From Candidatus Gastranaerophilales bacterium (GTDB lineage Bacteria > Cyanobacteriota > Vampirovibrionia > Gastranaerophilales > Gastranaerophilaceae), in NCBI GenBank assembly GCA_944322785.1, contig CALUPW010000012.1, positions 1 through 62,200 of the forward strand: a DNA stretch of 62,200 bases, written 5' to 3'. The notes beneath the pieces are model-generated. The model had not been told where the DNA came from. It was given only the letters and a program-made list of their open reading frames with translations, and did no database searches. This document shows, piece after piece, positions 3,131 through 50,246 of this stretch. Positions within the stretch are counted from its first letter, which is position 1, and each line of letters begins with the position of its first letter. The position numbers were made by a program, and so were the translations under genes.

Positions 3131-4158
3131 TGACAAAGTTTCTATCAATAAGTTCTAACTTTGAAAATACTCATACAGTTATCAATATTTTAGGACTGAA
3201 ACTTAAAATCAAAAAGAAAAATACCTTTGAATTAAGAACAGAAAAGTTATTGGTAAAACTTTGGAGTATGCAATACGACAATTCGTTTAATGCCTTTTTA
3301 CAACAATATATATTGATAAATAAAGATTTTATGTCGCCACAAATCTCACTTATTGCGATTTCGACATTAATTGAGAACAAATCGTATGCACAGGCAGAGT
3401 TTTTGATAAATAAGCATATCAAAAAATACGGAATAACTGATATTCCAAAGTTTTTATTAGTTTCATCATTTTGTCAAAGTATAAATATTACCAGTAATGA
3501 AATAGTTAAATCTGCAAAAATATACGAACATATTAAAAACAACCAAGAAAAATTACTGTTAGAAAAAATATTATTGAATAAAACCGTTGCTATTGTTGGA
3601 AATAGCCCCTGCGAAATAGGGCAAAATAAAGGCTCTGAAATTGATAAAAATGATTTAGTTATTAAGTTTAACAACTTTTCTAATTCTGAAAAGTATCAAA
3701 ATGATTACGGAACAAAGAATGATATATGGATGATTGCAGGAAATATTACAAAAAAGAATTATGATAATCATTTTGAAAATTTAAAAATGGTTATTGTTGC
3801 AGATGATATTGAACATTGTGTTTTTACAGATGAATTTCGGAGCTTTTTGTATGAAATAATTGCTAATACACAAATCCCGATTACGAGTTTGAAATTTGAA
3901 TATAGAAAGAATTTAAGAAATAAATATAATTTAATTCACCCCTCAACAGGGTTTCAAATTATAAATTATATTCACGATAACAGAAACACTATTAAAGATA
4001 TCAGTATTTACGGGTTCAGTTTCAATGATAGCAAAGAGGGAGTTAAGAAAAATATGTTTAATAAATATTTTCAAGAAAGAACACCTTTTTACATTATTCA
4101 TAATTATTACAAAGAAAGCGAAATTTTATCTGAATTATTGCAAAAAAAAAGGAGTTAG
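3130..4158 (+). CDS. Sialyltransferase-like glycosyltransferase (GT29-type)
   Basis: 342 residues. The N-terminal third is helical with the cluster's basic motif (ILGLKLKIKKK). The C-terminal part resembles the GT29 sialyltransferase fold: an L-motif-like stretch TVAIVGNSPCEIGQNKGS followed by DLVIKFNNF and DYGTKNDIW, and an S-motif-like HPSTGFQIINY with ISIYGFSF, then a late His-Asn-Tyr. GT29 enzymes transfer CMP-activated sugars, but no CMP-sialate synthesis genes lie in this window, so the donor may differ. It starts on the last base of the preceding stop codon. The family assignment is from remembered motifs only. Confidence 0.62.
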   Translation: MTKFLSISSNFENTHTVINILGLKLKIKKKNTFELRTEKLLVKLWSMQYDNSFNAFLQQYILINKDFMSPQISLIAISTLIENKSYAQAEFLINKHIKKYGITDIPKFLLVSSFCQSINITSNEIVKSAKIYEHIKNNQEKLLLEKILLNKTVAIVGNSPCEIGQNKGSEIDKNDLVIKFNNFSNSEKYQNDYGTKNDIWMIAGNITKKNYDNHFENLKMVIVADDIEHCVFTDEFRSFLYEIIANTQIPITSLKFEYRKNLRNKYNLIHPSTGFQIINYIHDNRNTIKDISIYGFSFNDSKEGVKKNMFNKYFQERTPFYIIHNYYKESEILSELLQKKRS

Positions 4159-8778: not shown

Positions 8779-9793
8779 CAGAAACTTTTACCCACGTTGA
8801 TAAATTTCCTGTATTTTCAGTACCGTTTGCGCAATCGTATATATATTTGTCACCATTTGAAAATTCTTTGCCTCTGTAATATGAAGTTTCAATTAATTTT
8901 TGACACATACCTCTAAATTGACCAAACCCCCTTGAATCTCGACCTCTTACGGCTGTTCCTCTGTCAATATACCAATTTTCATTTAAAGTATATCTTAATT
9001 TGGCATAAGGTTTTACCAAACGCATGTCTAATTCAACGAACTCTTTTGAATTTATATTGTAATCACCAAATGCTGGTAACCTATAGCTGTCAACGAAAGA
9101 ATTATAACATTTTTTATACAGTAGCCACTCTAAGCGCTTTGCATTATTTTGATCTGCATTTTTTGGGAATGAACCTCCACAAATAGCAAAGGAACGCCAT
9201 AGATTGATTTCTTTTAAAGTTTTTAAATTCGAAATGAGAAAATCAAAAAACTGTTCAAATTGACCACTAAAGGGCAAATCTTCAAAATCTACAAGAAGAT
9301 CAACTTTGGATTTATGTAACTCAATTTTTGAAAGAAATGATGCTATATTCTCGTTAATTCCGTCTGCTATGAAAGAAGATTTTAGACGCAAGCAAATCCC
9401 CCTTTTATCTAAATGAGCTATTTGTTTGATAGCTTCAATTGTCTCTTCTTTTGCATCAAGCGTTATGACAGGTGTAACTTCACAACTTTCCGACCGGTAT
9501 AATTCAAATATTTTTGGTATATATGCAATGTGTTCTGAATCTTGAAGAATAAGAGGTGTAACATCAATCAGACACTGTGCGCTTCCCCATTTTTTCTTAA
9601 GTCTGCTTCCTAAATGTTGAATGTGCTCGTCTATGGTTTTTGACTGTTTACGATTTTCAAAATCAAATCCTATTGGTGGGATTTCAAAAAGAGGTACGAT
9701 ATTCTTTTTAATTTCAGGTGTTAACTCAGATAATGCTTGGTATTCTCCTTGTTTCCATTTAAGGATTGGAATGTATGTGCTATGATTAATCAT
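8717..9793 (-). CDS. Beta-family protein (T4 beta protein-like)
   Basis: 358 residues opening with YIPILKWKQGEYQALSEL and KKNIVPLFEIPP, the typical start of the beta-family (PF14350-type) proteins related to a T4 phage protein. The rest is predicted alpha/beta with a TIM-barrel feel (repeated ITLD, CLRLK, LLVDFEDL strands). The molecular function is unknown. Its last 62 bp overlap the end of the sce7726-like gene on the other strand, and the two families recur together, so they may form one system. AAAGGA precedes the ATG, and a 30-bp perfect palindrome lies 17 bp upstream. Confidence 0.75.
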   Translation of the reverse strand: MINHSTYIPILKWKQGEYQALSELTPEIKKNIVPLFEIPPIGFDFENRKQSKTIDEHIQHLGSRLKKKWGSAQCLIDVTPLILQDSEHIAYIPKIFELYRSESCEVTPVITLDAKEETIEAIKQIAHLDKRGICLRLKSSFIADGINENIASFLSKIELHKSKVDLLVDFEDLPFSGQFEQFFDFLISNLKTLKEINLWRSFAICGGSFPKNADQNNAKRLEWLLYKKCYNSFVDSYRLPAFGDYNINSKEFVELDMRLVKPYAKLRYTLNENWYIDRGTAVRGRDSRGFGQFRGMCQKLIETSYYRGKEFSNGDKYIYDCANGTENTGNLSTWVKVSVNQHLTKVVYDLANLYGFSI

Positions 9794-45184: not shown

Positions 45185-46966
45185 TTAAGATTGTCTTTGA
45201 AAAAATGAGGCTATTTGTTTGTGCGGAACAATTTTTGAAATCGGGCGTCCGTGCGGGCATGTATAAGGCATTTGAGTTTTCCGCCACTTTTTAATAATTT
45301 CCTGCATCTGCCATGTCGAAAGTTTTTGACCTGCTTTAACAGAGGCTTTGCAGGCTGTTGTAATAAGGATTTTTTCTTCCAAACCGTCAATATCGCCTTC
45401 AATGTTTTCCAGAATATCAGAGAGAATTTCCTGAGGATTTACTTTTGCAATCAATTGCGGAACTTTTCGGAAAATAAGTTCGTTTTCTTTTGTAAACTCT
45501 ATTCCGTAACCGAACTTTTCAAATTTCTGGATATTTTCTTTAATAAGTTCAGCATCATCATTTGAAACAGTCAAAACATCCGATACAAAAAGCAGTTGAG
45601 AAACTACATTTTTTTCGGATTTAAGTTTTTCATAAATATATCTTTCCTCGGCAATATGCTGGTCAACGATTTCCAACCCGTCCTCCTGCTCAATCAAAAT
45701 ATATGTGTTTTTGTATTGCCCGATAATATTTTCCTCTGGTTCAGGTTCTTTTTCAACATGATTGATAAGTTTGGGCTGGACAATTTCTTCTTTCCGCTGA
45801 AACGGAAGATTGCTGCTTAATTTTTCCATCATATTGTCCGTTATATACATGGAATCTTCCCGTCTATCAACGAAAAATTCACTTTTCGGGGGCTGATTAA
45901 TACTTACGACTTTTTCTTTTGTTTCAAAATCAGGTTCTGCCGTAATCGTCATTGATGGCGCTGAAATCACCCTTTCAACATAGTTCGCCAGTCCGCCTTG
46001 AATTGATGTATATATAAAATTGAAAACCATATTTGTATTTTTATAGCGGACTTCTTTCTTTGTCGGATGTACGTTTACATCAACATCAGACGGCGGAATT
46101 TCAAAATTTAAAACAACAAACGGATATTTGCCGCTTGCGATTAAATTTTTGTAGGCAGTATCTATTGCCTTTTGAAAGACAGGACATTTTACCGTCCGGC
46201 GGTTGATATACATATAATAGTTTTTTTTGCTGGAACGGGTAAAATCCGGTGTGCTTACATATCCGGAAATCTTCAGTCCTGCCAGATTGTCGGTTTTTAA
46301 TACTTCTTTTAGACTTTCAACCACATCTGCGCCGAAAATTTCTTTAATTGTTCTTTTTAAATCGCCGAGTCCGTTTGTTTTTAAAACACTTTTTCCGTCA
46401 CGTTTAAGTTCAAATCCGATTTCCGGATAGGCAAGCGCAATATTTTGTACAAGTTCTTGAATATATGAAAATTCAGTTGAGGCGCTTTTTAAGAATTTTA
46501 ATCTTGCGGGAACATTATAAAAAAGCTCTTTAATATCCATAATCGTTCCGACTGCACAGCCTGTTTCAACCTGTTTGACCTCGGAGTTTTCACATTGAAC
46601 TTTTGTGCCTGTTTCAAATTCTGAAGTTCTTGTGGTGCAGGTAAGTTTTGAAACAGAAATTATGCTTGCCAGAGCTTCCCCCCTAAATCCCATTGTTGTT
46701 ACGGCAAACAAATCCTCATCATTTTGAATTTTGCTTGTGGCATGTTTTGTAAATGCAAGAAGAATGTCATCGGGATGAATTCCGCAGCCGTTGTCGGCAA
46801 TCCGGATATTTCTGCATTCATTGGTAATTTCAATGCTTATTTTTTTAGCACCTGCATCAACCGAGTTTTCAACAAGTTCTTTAACAACAGACGCCGGACG
46901 TTCAATTACTTCTCCCGCTGCAATCTGGTTTATTAAATTTTTAGAAAGCTGTTTAATTCTTGCCAA
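45185..46966 (-). CDS. mutL: DNA mismatch repair protein MutL
   Basis: 593 residues. ATPase motifs: IAAGEVIERPASVVKELVEN, ADNGCGIHPDDI and TMGFRGEALASI. The C-terminal dimerisation domain has IVDQHIAEERYIYEKL, ACKASVKAGQKL and CPHGRPI. The Cys/His motifs suggest a MutL with endonuclease-type zinc-site residues, but the DQHAxxER motif is changed to DQHIAEER. Second gene after the PiT-like permease (15 bp). Confidence 0.95.
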   Translation of the reverse strand: MARIKQLSKNLINQIAAGEVIERPASVVKELVENSVDAGAKKISIEITNECRNIRIADNGCGIHPDDILLAFTKHATSKIQNDEDLFAVTTMGFRGEALASIISVSKLTCTTRTSEFETGTKVQCENSEVKQVETGCAVGTIMDIKELFYNVPARLKFLKSASTEFSYIQELVQNIALAYPEIGFELKRDGKSVLKTNGLGDLKRTIKEIFGADVVESLKEVLKTDNLAGLKISGYVSTPDFTRSSKKNYYMYINRRTVKCPVFQKAIDTAYKNLIASGKYPFVVLNFEIPPSDVDVNVHPTKKEVRYKNTNMVFNFIYTSIQGGLANYVERVISAPSMTITAEPDFETKEKVVSINQPPKSEFFVDRREDSMYITDNMMEKLSSNLPFQRKEEIVQPKLINHVEKEPEPEENIIGQYKNTYILIEQEDGLEIVDQHIAEERYIYEKLKSEKNVVSQLLFVSDVLTVSNDDAELIKENIQKFEKFGYGIEFTKENELIFRKVPQLIAKVNPQEILSDILENIEGDIDGLEEKILITTACKASVKAGQKLSTWQMQEIIKKWRKTQMPYTCPHGRPISKIVPHKQIASFFQRQS

Positions 46967-48174: not shown

Positions 48175-49047
48175 TTGGCAAAAGTTAAAACAAATACAAA
48201 ACTTAAACCGTTAAAAAAGGCGGATTTGCAGGTCGTAAAACCTGTAAAAACTACAAAATACAGTGATATTGATTTAAATAACTGGAAAGCGTACAATCAT
48301 ATCAAAACCGATACTCTCTGGGAATTTCCTTCACGCTTAAAAGAAGGCGGGCATTCAAACGAATATCACGGGAATTATATTCCTCAGATTGCGCAGCAGT
48401 TATATGAACGATTTACTAAAAAGAATGATGTGGTTTTGGATTTGTTTTTCGGCTCCGGTACTTCCGGTATTGAAGCGATAAATATGGGGCGCCGTTGTAT
48501 CGGGGTTGAGTTGAAAGAGGAGCTGGCTGAAAAAGTTTCCGAAAAATTCACACCCAAACAACTTGTAACGGATGTAAGAATTATCTGCGGTGATTCGGCG
48601 TCTGATAAAGTAAAAGACAAAATTCAGGCAGGACTTGATATTTTGCGTGAAGAAAGGGCACAGTTTTTAATTCTTCATCCGCCCTATGATGACATTATCA
48701 AGTTTTCAGACAAAAAAGAAGATTTATCAAATTGTGATTCAACTGATGAATTTTATGATTTGTTCGCAAAAGTTGCCAAAAATGGCTACGATTTGCTTGA
48801 AAAAGGCAGATTTGCCGCTCTTATAATAGGCGACAGCTACAAAAATTCCGAAGTTCAGCCGCTCGGCTTTGAATGTATGGCAAGAATGTTGAATTTGGGA
48901 TTTAAACTAAAAGGTATTATCGTAAAAGATATTCAGGGCAATGAACGAGCAAAAGGAAGAACCGCAAATTTGTGGAGATACCGTGCACTTGCCGGCGGAT
49001 TTTATATTTTTAAACATGAATATGTAATGATATTTCAAAAAGTATAA
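48175..49047 (+). CDS. Solitary DNA methyltransferase
   Basis: 290 residues starting at TTG 48175 after AGGGGAG. The SAM motif is VLDLFFGSGTSGIEAINMGR; the catalytic motif is ILHPPYDDIIKFS, so the usual D/N/S before PPY is His. YRALAGGFYIFKHEYVMIFQ ends the protein. This is the N4/N6 amino-methylase fold. No restriction gene is adjacent: a G-tract ORF and repeats follow. It may be regulatory. Confidence 0.8.
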   Translation: MAKVKTNTKLKPLKKADLQVVKPVKTTKYSDIDLNNWKAYNHIKTDTLWEFPSRLKEGGHSNEYHGNYIPQIAQQLYERFTKKNDVVLDLFFGSGTSGIEAINMGRRCIGVELKEELAEKVSEKFTPKQLVTDVRIICGDSASDKVKDKIQAGLDILREERAQFLILHPPYDDIIKFSDKKEDLSNCDSTDEFYDLFAKVAKNGYDLLEKGRFAALIIGDSYKNSEVQPLGFECMARMLNLGFKLKGIIVKDIQGNERAKGRTANLWRYRALAGGFYIFKHEYVMIFQKV

Positions 49048-49060
49048 AGGAGCTAAAAAG

Positions 49061-49111
49061 ATGAAAAAGCAGACTATGATTGAAATTCAGGGGGGGGGGG
49101 GCAACCCGTAA
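49061..49111 (+). other. Short ORF with ribosome site running into a 12-G tract
   Basis: AAAGGAG precedes ATG 49061, 13 bp after the methylase gene. In the current frame the peptide ends 16 codons later at TAA. Loss of one G would put this start in frame with the pilin ORF at 49545-50246. See the poly-G tract. Confidence 0.45.
49090..49101 (+). repeat. Poly-G tract of 12
   Basis: Twelve consecutive G in an AT-rich genome, 29 bp after a start codon with a good ribosome site. Homopolymer G-tracts of this length slip during replication and are classic phase-variation switches. Length from raw assembly may be off by one. Confidence 0.85.
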
Positions 49112-49220
49112 AACAGGCTCCTGTTGCGATTTAACAATTAGTCATTCTTCAGCCAAGGACAATTTAAGTCCAAAGCCTCTTAAAAAGACATGTCTTGAAT
49201 CATTTTACGAAAACCGTTAC

Positions 49221-49549
49221 GTCATTCTGAACTTGATTGGCTACTTTTGCCGAAATCAAGAAATGATTTCGTGCAAAATGCCTGGTTTTCCACAGAATCT
49301 ATCAATTTTGATAAAAACAATCAGAAAAGATTCCGGCTCGGAGGCCGGAATGACAGAGCCGTCACATGTGCATTCGTCATGTCATTCTGAGCTTGACTCA
49401 GAATCTATCAATGCTGATAAAGACAGACTCCGGCTCGGGGGCCGGAGTGACGAATGCGGTCAAATCACAAATTCTTCTTTCCGTCATTCTGAATTTCTTT
49501 CAGAATCTCTAAATAAAGCAACAGATTCCGGCTCGGAGGCAGGAATGAC
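49221..49549 (+). repeat. Cluster of three palindromic GTCATTCTGA...GGAATGAC repeats
   Basis: Copies lie at 49221-49354 (expanded in the middle), 49381-49451 and 49483-49549. Each begins GTCATTCTGA, has CAGAATCT, then a hairpin such as ATTCCGGCTCGGAGGCCGGAA, and ends GAATGAC or GAGTGAC, so the two ends pair. A half copy is at 48122-48146 and a relative at 58420-58448. The last copy reaches into the pilin gene. Confidence 0.75.
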
Positions 49550-50246
49550 GAAAATTTCGTCTAACAACCTCTGTCCCGCAGTTCGGAATGACAAATCAGG
49601 GTGCAAAGCCGCCTTCACCATGGCAGAAGTCCTGATAACCCTCGGCATAATCGGTATTGTTGCCGCAATGACTTTGCCGTCATTGATTAACAAGGCAGAA
49701 CGTATGATTTTAACCCAGCAGTTTAAAAAATCTTATGCAAATCTGCAAAATGCGGTAAACTCAGTACAATGGGAACATGGGATGCCTTATGTTTGTTACG
49801 TTATGGGTGCATCAAAATATTATGACACAGAATGCAGTATTTTCTGGCCTGAGTTGCTCTCAAAATTGCGTGTAATACGAATATGTAATTATTATGATGA
49901 AGGCTGCAGTCCAAGGTATAAAACTAAAGAAGAAATCCTTTCCGCAGGTGGTAATGTTGATAATTTATCGTGTTCACTGACAGCGACTTTAGATAACTAT
50001 AAAGTTTATACTTTGTATGACGGCTCATATCTGTTAATTAATCCCGGAAGTTCTGGAAATTCGGCATATTCACAGTGGGTTGTGATTGATGTCAACGGAG
50101 AAAAAGGCCCGAATAAATGGGGATACGATGTATTCTGGACAAATCTCTACAGAGAAAATGAAAAGAAAAACGTTGTAATGTTTGATGAAATCTGTAAAAT
50201 GAAAGAAAAGGGCGGAGTTTATTTTAGAGATATGATTTTAAAATAA
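49545..50246 (+). CDS. Type IV pilin-like (prepilin) protein
   Basis: 233 residues. The prepilin signature is KAAFTMAEVLITLGIIGIVA followed by AMTLPSL, about 24 residues from the start, with Glu at +5 of the mature chain, so it should be cut by prepilin peptidase and assembled by a type IV pilus/pseudopilus machine. The globular part has Cys pairs (CNYYDEGCSP and CSLTATL). The chosen ATG follows GGAGG by five bases; both belong to the terminal copy of the palindromic repeat. The frame stays open upstream through the repeats to about 49080, but without a proper start. Confidence 0.82.
   Translation: MTKISSNNLCPAVRNDKSGCKAAFTMAEVLITLGIIGIVAAMTLPSLINKAERMILTQQFKKSYANLQNAVNSVQWEHGMPYVCYVMGASKYYDTECSIFWPELLSKLRVIRICNYYDEGCSPRYKTKEEILSAGGNVDNLSCSLTATLDNYKVYTLYDGSYLLINPGSSGNSAYSQWVVIDVNGEKGPNKWGYDVFWTNLYRENEKKNVVMFDEICKMKEKGGVYFRDMILK

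Follow-up and report, generated by a model that had tools for sequence, protein, structure and literature searches.

A type IV prepilin gene of Candidatus Gastranaerophilales with a poly-G tract in its leader: probable member of a large, default-OFF, slippage-switched gene family

The window, a stretch of 62,200 nucleotides from the genome of a Candidatus Gastranaerophilales bacterium, carries a tract of 12 consecutive G residues (49090–49101) as the proposed slippage switch ahead of a pilin gene; coordinates refer to the plus strand of the window unless stated otherwise. From the sequence comparisons described below, we consider the locus to belong, with a probability of about 80%, to a large group of type IV prepilin genes that are phase-variable and would form a default-OFF repertoire switched by slippage. 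The preliminary description had recognized here the layout of a contingency locus, and this is supported by a genome-wide repertoire of such tracts, by orthologues that differ in tract length and coding state, and by purifying selection on the pilin despite its being OFF in five of five assemblies. It understated the case, as the host genome contains 42 tracts of at least 10 G, and about 37 of these precede pilins.

The gene directly upstream of the tract encodes a DNA adenine/N4 methylase (48175–49047; Pfam N6_N4_Mtase, E value 2e-21) and is the conserved neighbor that marks the slot, with orthologues of 90–96% identity in 13 of the 14 genomes of the genus. The Shine-Dalgarno sequence AGGAGCT (49048–49054) of the ATG at 49061 comes directly after the methylase stop codon. 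The ATG enters the G12 tract and, at the assembled length, its frame stops after 16 codons (MKKQTMIEIQGGGGNP; 49061–49111, TAA at 49109–49111), as the preliminary description had stated; in the ON state, translation of the pilin precursor would begin here and the same stretch would supply its leader. At 11 or 14 G, this frame joins an open frame of 380 codons that runs from the end of the tract through a spacer and the pilin to the stop codon (49104–50246, stop at 50244–50246), which bears out the link to the pilin that had been proposed. The placement of the tract between a DNA methylase and a pilin was also confirmed, the pilin motif FTMAEVLITLG beginning at 49614. A tract of 13 G is again OFF, with a stop after 10 further codons, and the non-pilin frames close within 11 codons, so that a change in tract length toggles the coding frame (12 OFF, 11 or 14 ON, 13 OFF) in the manner of a contingency locus.

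The prepilin cleavage and N-methylation motif, KAA followed by FTMAEVLITLGIIGIVAAMTLPSLI (49605–49673), scored 22.6 bits with Pfam N_methyl (G000:C12:49605-49673) and 17.9 bits with TIGR02532, over cut-off; the N_methyl match was over cut-off in the genome search and below it in the scan of the full-length protein. Phe-1, Thr-2, and Glu-5 of the mature protein are invariant across 35 homologues, and Phe-1 and Glu-5 are the residues expected of this motif. The AlphaFold2 model of the mature pilin (49614–50243, 210 residues, mean pLDDT 85.5) shows a long N-terminal helix (residues 3–55) and a globular, beta-rich C-terminal domain, as expected of a pilin. A Foldseek search of the mature pilin against the PDB returned no match with an E value of 0.001 or lower, and it is therefore the motif and the helix that carry the assignment as a type IV pilin; the C-terminal domain is confidently modeled and has no counterpart among solved structures. 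N_methyl was the only Pfam match in the protein, with none of the domains of sortase-anchored pilins. The same genome has one match to the prepilin peptidase family Peptidase_A24 and four matches over cut-off to T2SSE, the family of PilB/PilT-like ATPases. Comparison of the mature pilin at the window slot across five species gave pS values of 0.61–0.82 versus pN values of 0.17–0.33, a pattern of purifying selection at the sequence level, which, with all five assemblies OFF, argues that the gene is not permanently silent. The possibility that the pilin is a pseudogene was rejected, dN being far below dS.

The host genome (1.95 Mb in 18 contigs, 99.75% complete) contains its 42 tracts of at least 10 G against 0.05–0.2 expected from composition, computed with the 32% G+C of the window. 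Within the window the G12 tract is the only run of at least 11 G, and 100 dinucleotide shuffles gave no such run; a slippable repeat of 9 or more G in or near the gene is therefore far above chance, and a chance origin of the tract was rejected. An SD-bearing start codon lies just 5' of 38 of the 42 tracts, and 37 have a pilin motif inside 1.5 kb; nearly all of these pilins are OFF as assembled. Most of these loci share a common module consisting of an SD, an ATG, the peptide (V)KKQTMIEIQ or METIDMTGFQ, G12, and CAACCCGTAAAACAGGCTCCTG. Pilin motifs of the N_methyl type number 70 in this genome, 63 of them above the Pfam cut-off, and with about 37 next to a tract, about half of its pilins are tract-bearing. 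All but one of 20 tractless pilins examined have plain leaders of 4–10 residues, such as MKKAFTMAEV. Several other loci of this genome were noted. Two copies of the pilin module have a tract broken by an A, one locked OFF (L085, G000:C2:108472) and one locked ON (L086, G000:C7:24601). An acyltransferase-3 gene (L023, G000:C3, minus strand) is split by G12 (8850–8861) together with the downstream half of the pilin module (CAACCCGTAAAACAGCTCCTTG) and is OFF as assembled. A gene of unknown family (L015, G000:C2, minus strand) contains a G13 tract (4026–4038) and is in frame and ON as assembled. An apparent mutL gene (45185–46966, minus strand) is uninterrupted, indicating that mismatch repair is not obviously lost.

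Between the tract and the mature pilin, the window locus contains a spacer of 170 codons (49104–49613) composed of in-frame insertions of dispersed palindromic repeats, with copies found by repeat search at 49325–49354, 49422–49451, and 49520–49549 and at 49381–49412 and 49483–49514. Its predicted product would include SVHSSCHSELDSES-type peptides. The palindromic repeats of the pilin leaders, which lie in frame at 49215–49592 (TTCCGGCTCGGAGGCCGGAATGAC; GTCATTCTGAGCTTGACTCAGAATC), also provide an SD and an ATG (GGAGGCCGGAATG), and as in-frame palindromic insertions they are reminiscent of the Rickettsia palindromic elements. Their insertion accounts for the long pilin leaders of the window genome, which have a median of 126 residues. 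In G008, G006, and G001 the start-tract module runs straight into an ordinary prepilin leader, as in the short leader of L073 (MQTMIEV..GGG..APENKLLVGKKIG followed by FTLAEVLITLG), and the predicted median leader in G001 is 23 residues. These simple copies of the module in relatives indicate that translation of the pilin itself starts at the ATG, with the tract inside the leader peptide.

The spacer of the window locus also contains an in-frame ATG (49545–49547) with GGAGG five bases upstream, 23 codons before the mature pilin, from which tract-independent synthesis of the window pilin would be possible. On this basis the tract could be irrelevant here, with translation beginning at the internal ATG and the tract module being a decaying short upstream frame. 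Internal starts with an SD are present in 30 of the 136 tract pilins that could be scored, but 79 of the 136 lack any in-frame start beyond the tract, and L166, at 72% identity the closest orthologue, is one of them. The start, SD, and tract are conserved between species, and the former internal ATG of L069 (MKKAF) is now ATA while the tract leader is retained. Of the 33 spacers of at least 100 nt in the window genome, 26 keep the pilin frame open all the way from the tract, against 0.36 predicted from shuffles and one opening in total for the remaining two frames, although the 33 spacers are related by descent and 26 of 33 does not count independent events. Taken against the two points in its favor, these observations make translation from the internal start improbable. 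The preliminary description had proposed that the tract switches an N-terminally extended pilin; the switch is upheld and the optional extension is not, as the short leaders of the relatives and the 79 tract pilins lacking a post-tract start suggest that the tract probably switches the whole pilin. Switching of just an optional extension was rejected on the latter count.

When the 136 tract pilins, from nine genomes, were classified by assembled tract length, 14 were ON, 108 had one G too many, and 14 were in the third frame (13, 105, and 14, respectively, after removal of duplicates); the start codons for this census were chosen by an SD rule, a few of which may be in error. A small sample from three other genera had tracts of 11–14 G, and most of its pilins, too, were out of frame by one extra G. 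In the window genome, the register is preserved even at loci with a changed base ahead of the tract (A + G12, 13 G, AA + G11). We read the one-G excess as a selected default-OFF state that would lie one deletion away from ON. The bias toward one register (108 of 136) and its conservation are narrower than free slippage predicts and count against slippage switching.

This uniformity is the strongest argument for decoding at the RNA level, in which the DNA tract would be essentially fixed at one G too long and a low pilin output would arise through RNA polymerase slippage with loss of one G, or through a +1 ribosomal shift. Nearly 80% of the tract pilins are in one register, which also holds in genera with modal tracts of 11 or 13 G, the register persists through the changes of flanking base, and the protein is conserved at the window slot even though all assemblies there are OFF. 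Copies in the ON and third frames exist, however, and tract lengths differ between orthologues. Interrupted tracts are found locked ON (L086) as well as locked OFF (L085, and L155 in G007), and the stop codon lies three codons beyond the G run, a placement unlike that of classical shift sites. In view of these points, we regard RNA-level decoding as unlikely, if slightly less so than the internal start.

The differences between orthologues favor slippage of the DNA tract. The G008 locus L075 has G12 and is ON versus G13 and OFF for L096 of G006, with an identical leader, and orthologous tracts also differ between L022 of G000 (G13) and L097 of G006 (G12) and between L169 of G001 (G11) and L202 of G011 (G12). 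L199 of G004 is ON and L200 of G011 is OFF, the two being ~99% identical over 2.4 kb with flanks of 98 and 100% identity (BLAST); near the tract the sole differences are a gained A and G and the loss of a G 5 nt further on, so this difference is not purely one of G count. Tracts that differ between close relatives, as contingency loci show, were thus found at other loci of the pilin family, as variation between species with one genome per species. At the window slot the tract pilin is present in five species, in each case with G12 and OFF, and no tract variation is seen; ~70 other members of the bacterial family have no pilin at this slot.

The SD at 49048–49054 is also the 5' arm of an inverted repeat, whose 3' arm is a GGCTCCT anti-Shine-Dalgarno sequence (49116–49122) that is conserved 3' of most tracts and pairs with the SD in the predicted RNA fold. 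Most modules have a downstream GCTCCT that complements the SD AGGAGCT, the two bracketing the start and the tract. The repeat is absent from tractless pilins (pairing score of 11.95 versus 16.8, with 11.6 for shuffles). Across copies the downstream arm is translated in three frames (KLL, AP, SC), which indicates that it is kept as nucleic acid and not as protein. The arms of each locus pair better with each other than when swapped between all loci (0 of 200). When eight genomes were taken singly, own pairing was above swapped pairing in every one, with p values of 0.002 to 0.42, significant in two. The folding energy of the whole leader RNA of the window was not below that of shuffles (z = −0.42), and it is conservation and covariation on which the hairpin therefore rests. 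Our guess is that the inverted repeat may hold back re-initiation on the silent message. Another idea is that AGGAGCT and AGCTCCT might be the ends of a small mobile element, and homologous copying of the module fits equally. In an extended form of RNA-level decoding, hundreds of pilin genes across the whole bacterial family would be stored one G off on purpose, with transcript slippage or a +1 ribosomal shift gated by the SD/anti-SD hairpin that encloses start and tract, which we again hold to be unlikely.

Within the bacterial family, 185 of 287 genomes contain runs of at least 11 G, as do 32 of 39 genera, with a maximum of 117 per genome, and 7 of 8 genomes from other families of the order have none. 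Tracts are also found in DNA methylase and acyltransferase genes. One locus of G004 (L184, G004:C8:21800-26600, minus strand) has three adjacent N6/N4 DNA methylase genes with tracts of G9, G10, and G12 before a DFFSGSGTT motif, of which the G10 copy reads through (ON) and those with G9 and G12 have a frameshift (OFF); by sequence these methylases are candidates for phase variation. Nearby on the same strand (L193, G004:C8:29800-32600), a C5 cytosine DNA methylase gene is interrupted in frame at G10 and is OFF as assembled.

Many contigs of G004, G006, G007, G012, and G029 end ~100 nt or less from a G tract. Assemblies tend to break at the tracts, for which shared modules, mixtures of lengths, and G-run dropout are candidate causes. 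That assemblers struggle here, and that modules are near-identical within a genome, fits a spreading repeat without function or an assembly error with unreliable G counts. The architecture is nevertheless kept where the modules differ between species, the frames and mature proteins are under selection, and the tracts appear in assemblies of several projects, including ones with contig names in the style of metaSPAdes, MEGAHIT, and IDBA. This makes such an origin very improbable.

The slippage-switched repertoire that we favor would operate as follows. The poly-G tract lies in the leader peptide, at most ~10 codons after the pilin start codon, and with G12 the ribosome would reach the TAA a few codons on, whereas one G fewer or two more would turn the gene ON. 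Slipped-strand mispairing during replication would alter the tract length at a high rate, so that, at any one locus, most of a population would be OFF and a minority ON. With independent tracts at ~37 pilins, each cell would show a small and changing subset of them, and the ~30 tractless pilins with leaders of 4–10 amino acids would be constitutive. The single prepilin peptidase would cut off the long leader at A/F 49614. The assembled one-G excess suggests that OFF is the selected default.

The closest likeness is found in Bifidobacterium breve UCC2003, in which bbr_0113 and bbr_1889 encode sortase-dependent pili switched by G tracts (PMC9187656). There, a G10–G12 tract lies early within the pilus gene, the annotated genome is OFF, one G fewer fuses two frames of bbr_1889, and mixed tract lengths in the population as well as selection in the gut have been measured (PMC9187656). 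Both cases concern a gut commensal with an early intragenic tract in a pilus gene and an OFF reference genome. B. breve, a Gram-positive, has one or two such loci per genome and covalent sortase pili, whereas Gastranaerophilales, from an unrelated phylum, have dozens of type IV pilins with the tract in the prepilin leader. Phasomes of simple sequence repeats (SSRs) switch the frames of surface genes, methylases, and acyltransferases. Those of Campylobacter, Neisseria, and Helicobacter are reported to have many poly-G tracts per genome (PhasomeIt, PMC6321876; Neisseria phasome, PMC5953494). They resemble the repertoire described here in having many frame-switching poly-G tracts on surface genes, methylases, and acyltransferases. 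Their targets are diverse surface modifiers, whereas in Gastranaerophilales one paralogous family predominates, that of the prepilins, which have a start module in common and a uniform OFF register. Gonococcal Opa proteins are outer-membrane adhesins switched by CTCTT pentamers, and gonococcal pilin varies by gene conversion. The Opa repertoire is reported to comprise about 11 genes (PMC3745409). The Opa family and PilC resemble the repertoire described here as a multigene family of surface proteins whose repeats, close to the start codon, switch independently of one another; Opa differs in its pentamer repeat and adhesin product, and gonococcal pilin in varying by gene conversion where each tract pilin of Gastranaerophilales has a tract of its own.

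A search of the open-access literature found no report combining this lineage with phase variation of pili. Relative to known contingency loci, the differences lie in the lineage, the pilus class, the number of paralogous pilins that would be switched independently, the shared start module, and the uniform OFF register. Such switch repertoires were previously tied mainly to pathogens, and this one belongs to a gut commensal lineage. A non-photosynthetic sister lineage of the cyanobacteria, uncultured and living in animal guts, has dozens of candidate slippage switches per genome, mostly devoted to one type of surface fiber. If this is true, the pilins displayed by these common and poorly understood bacteria would differ from one gut cell to the next, each cell having its own small set, and this would matter for adhesion, attack by phages, and recognition by the immune system.
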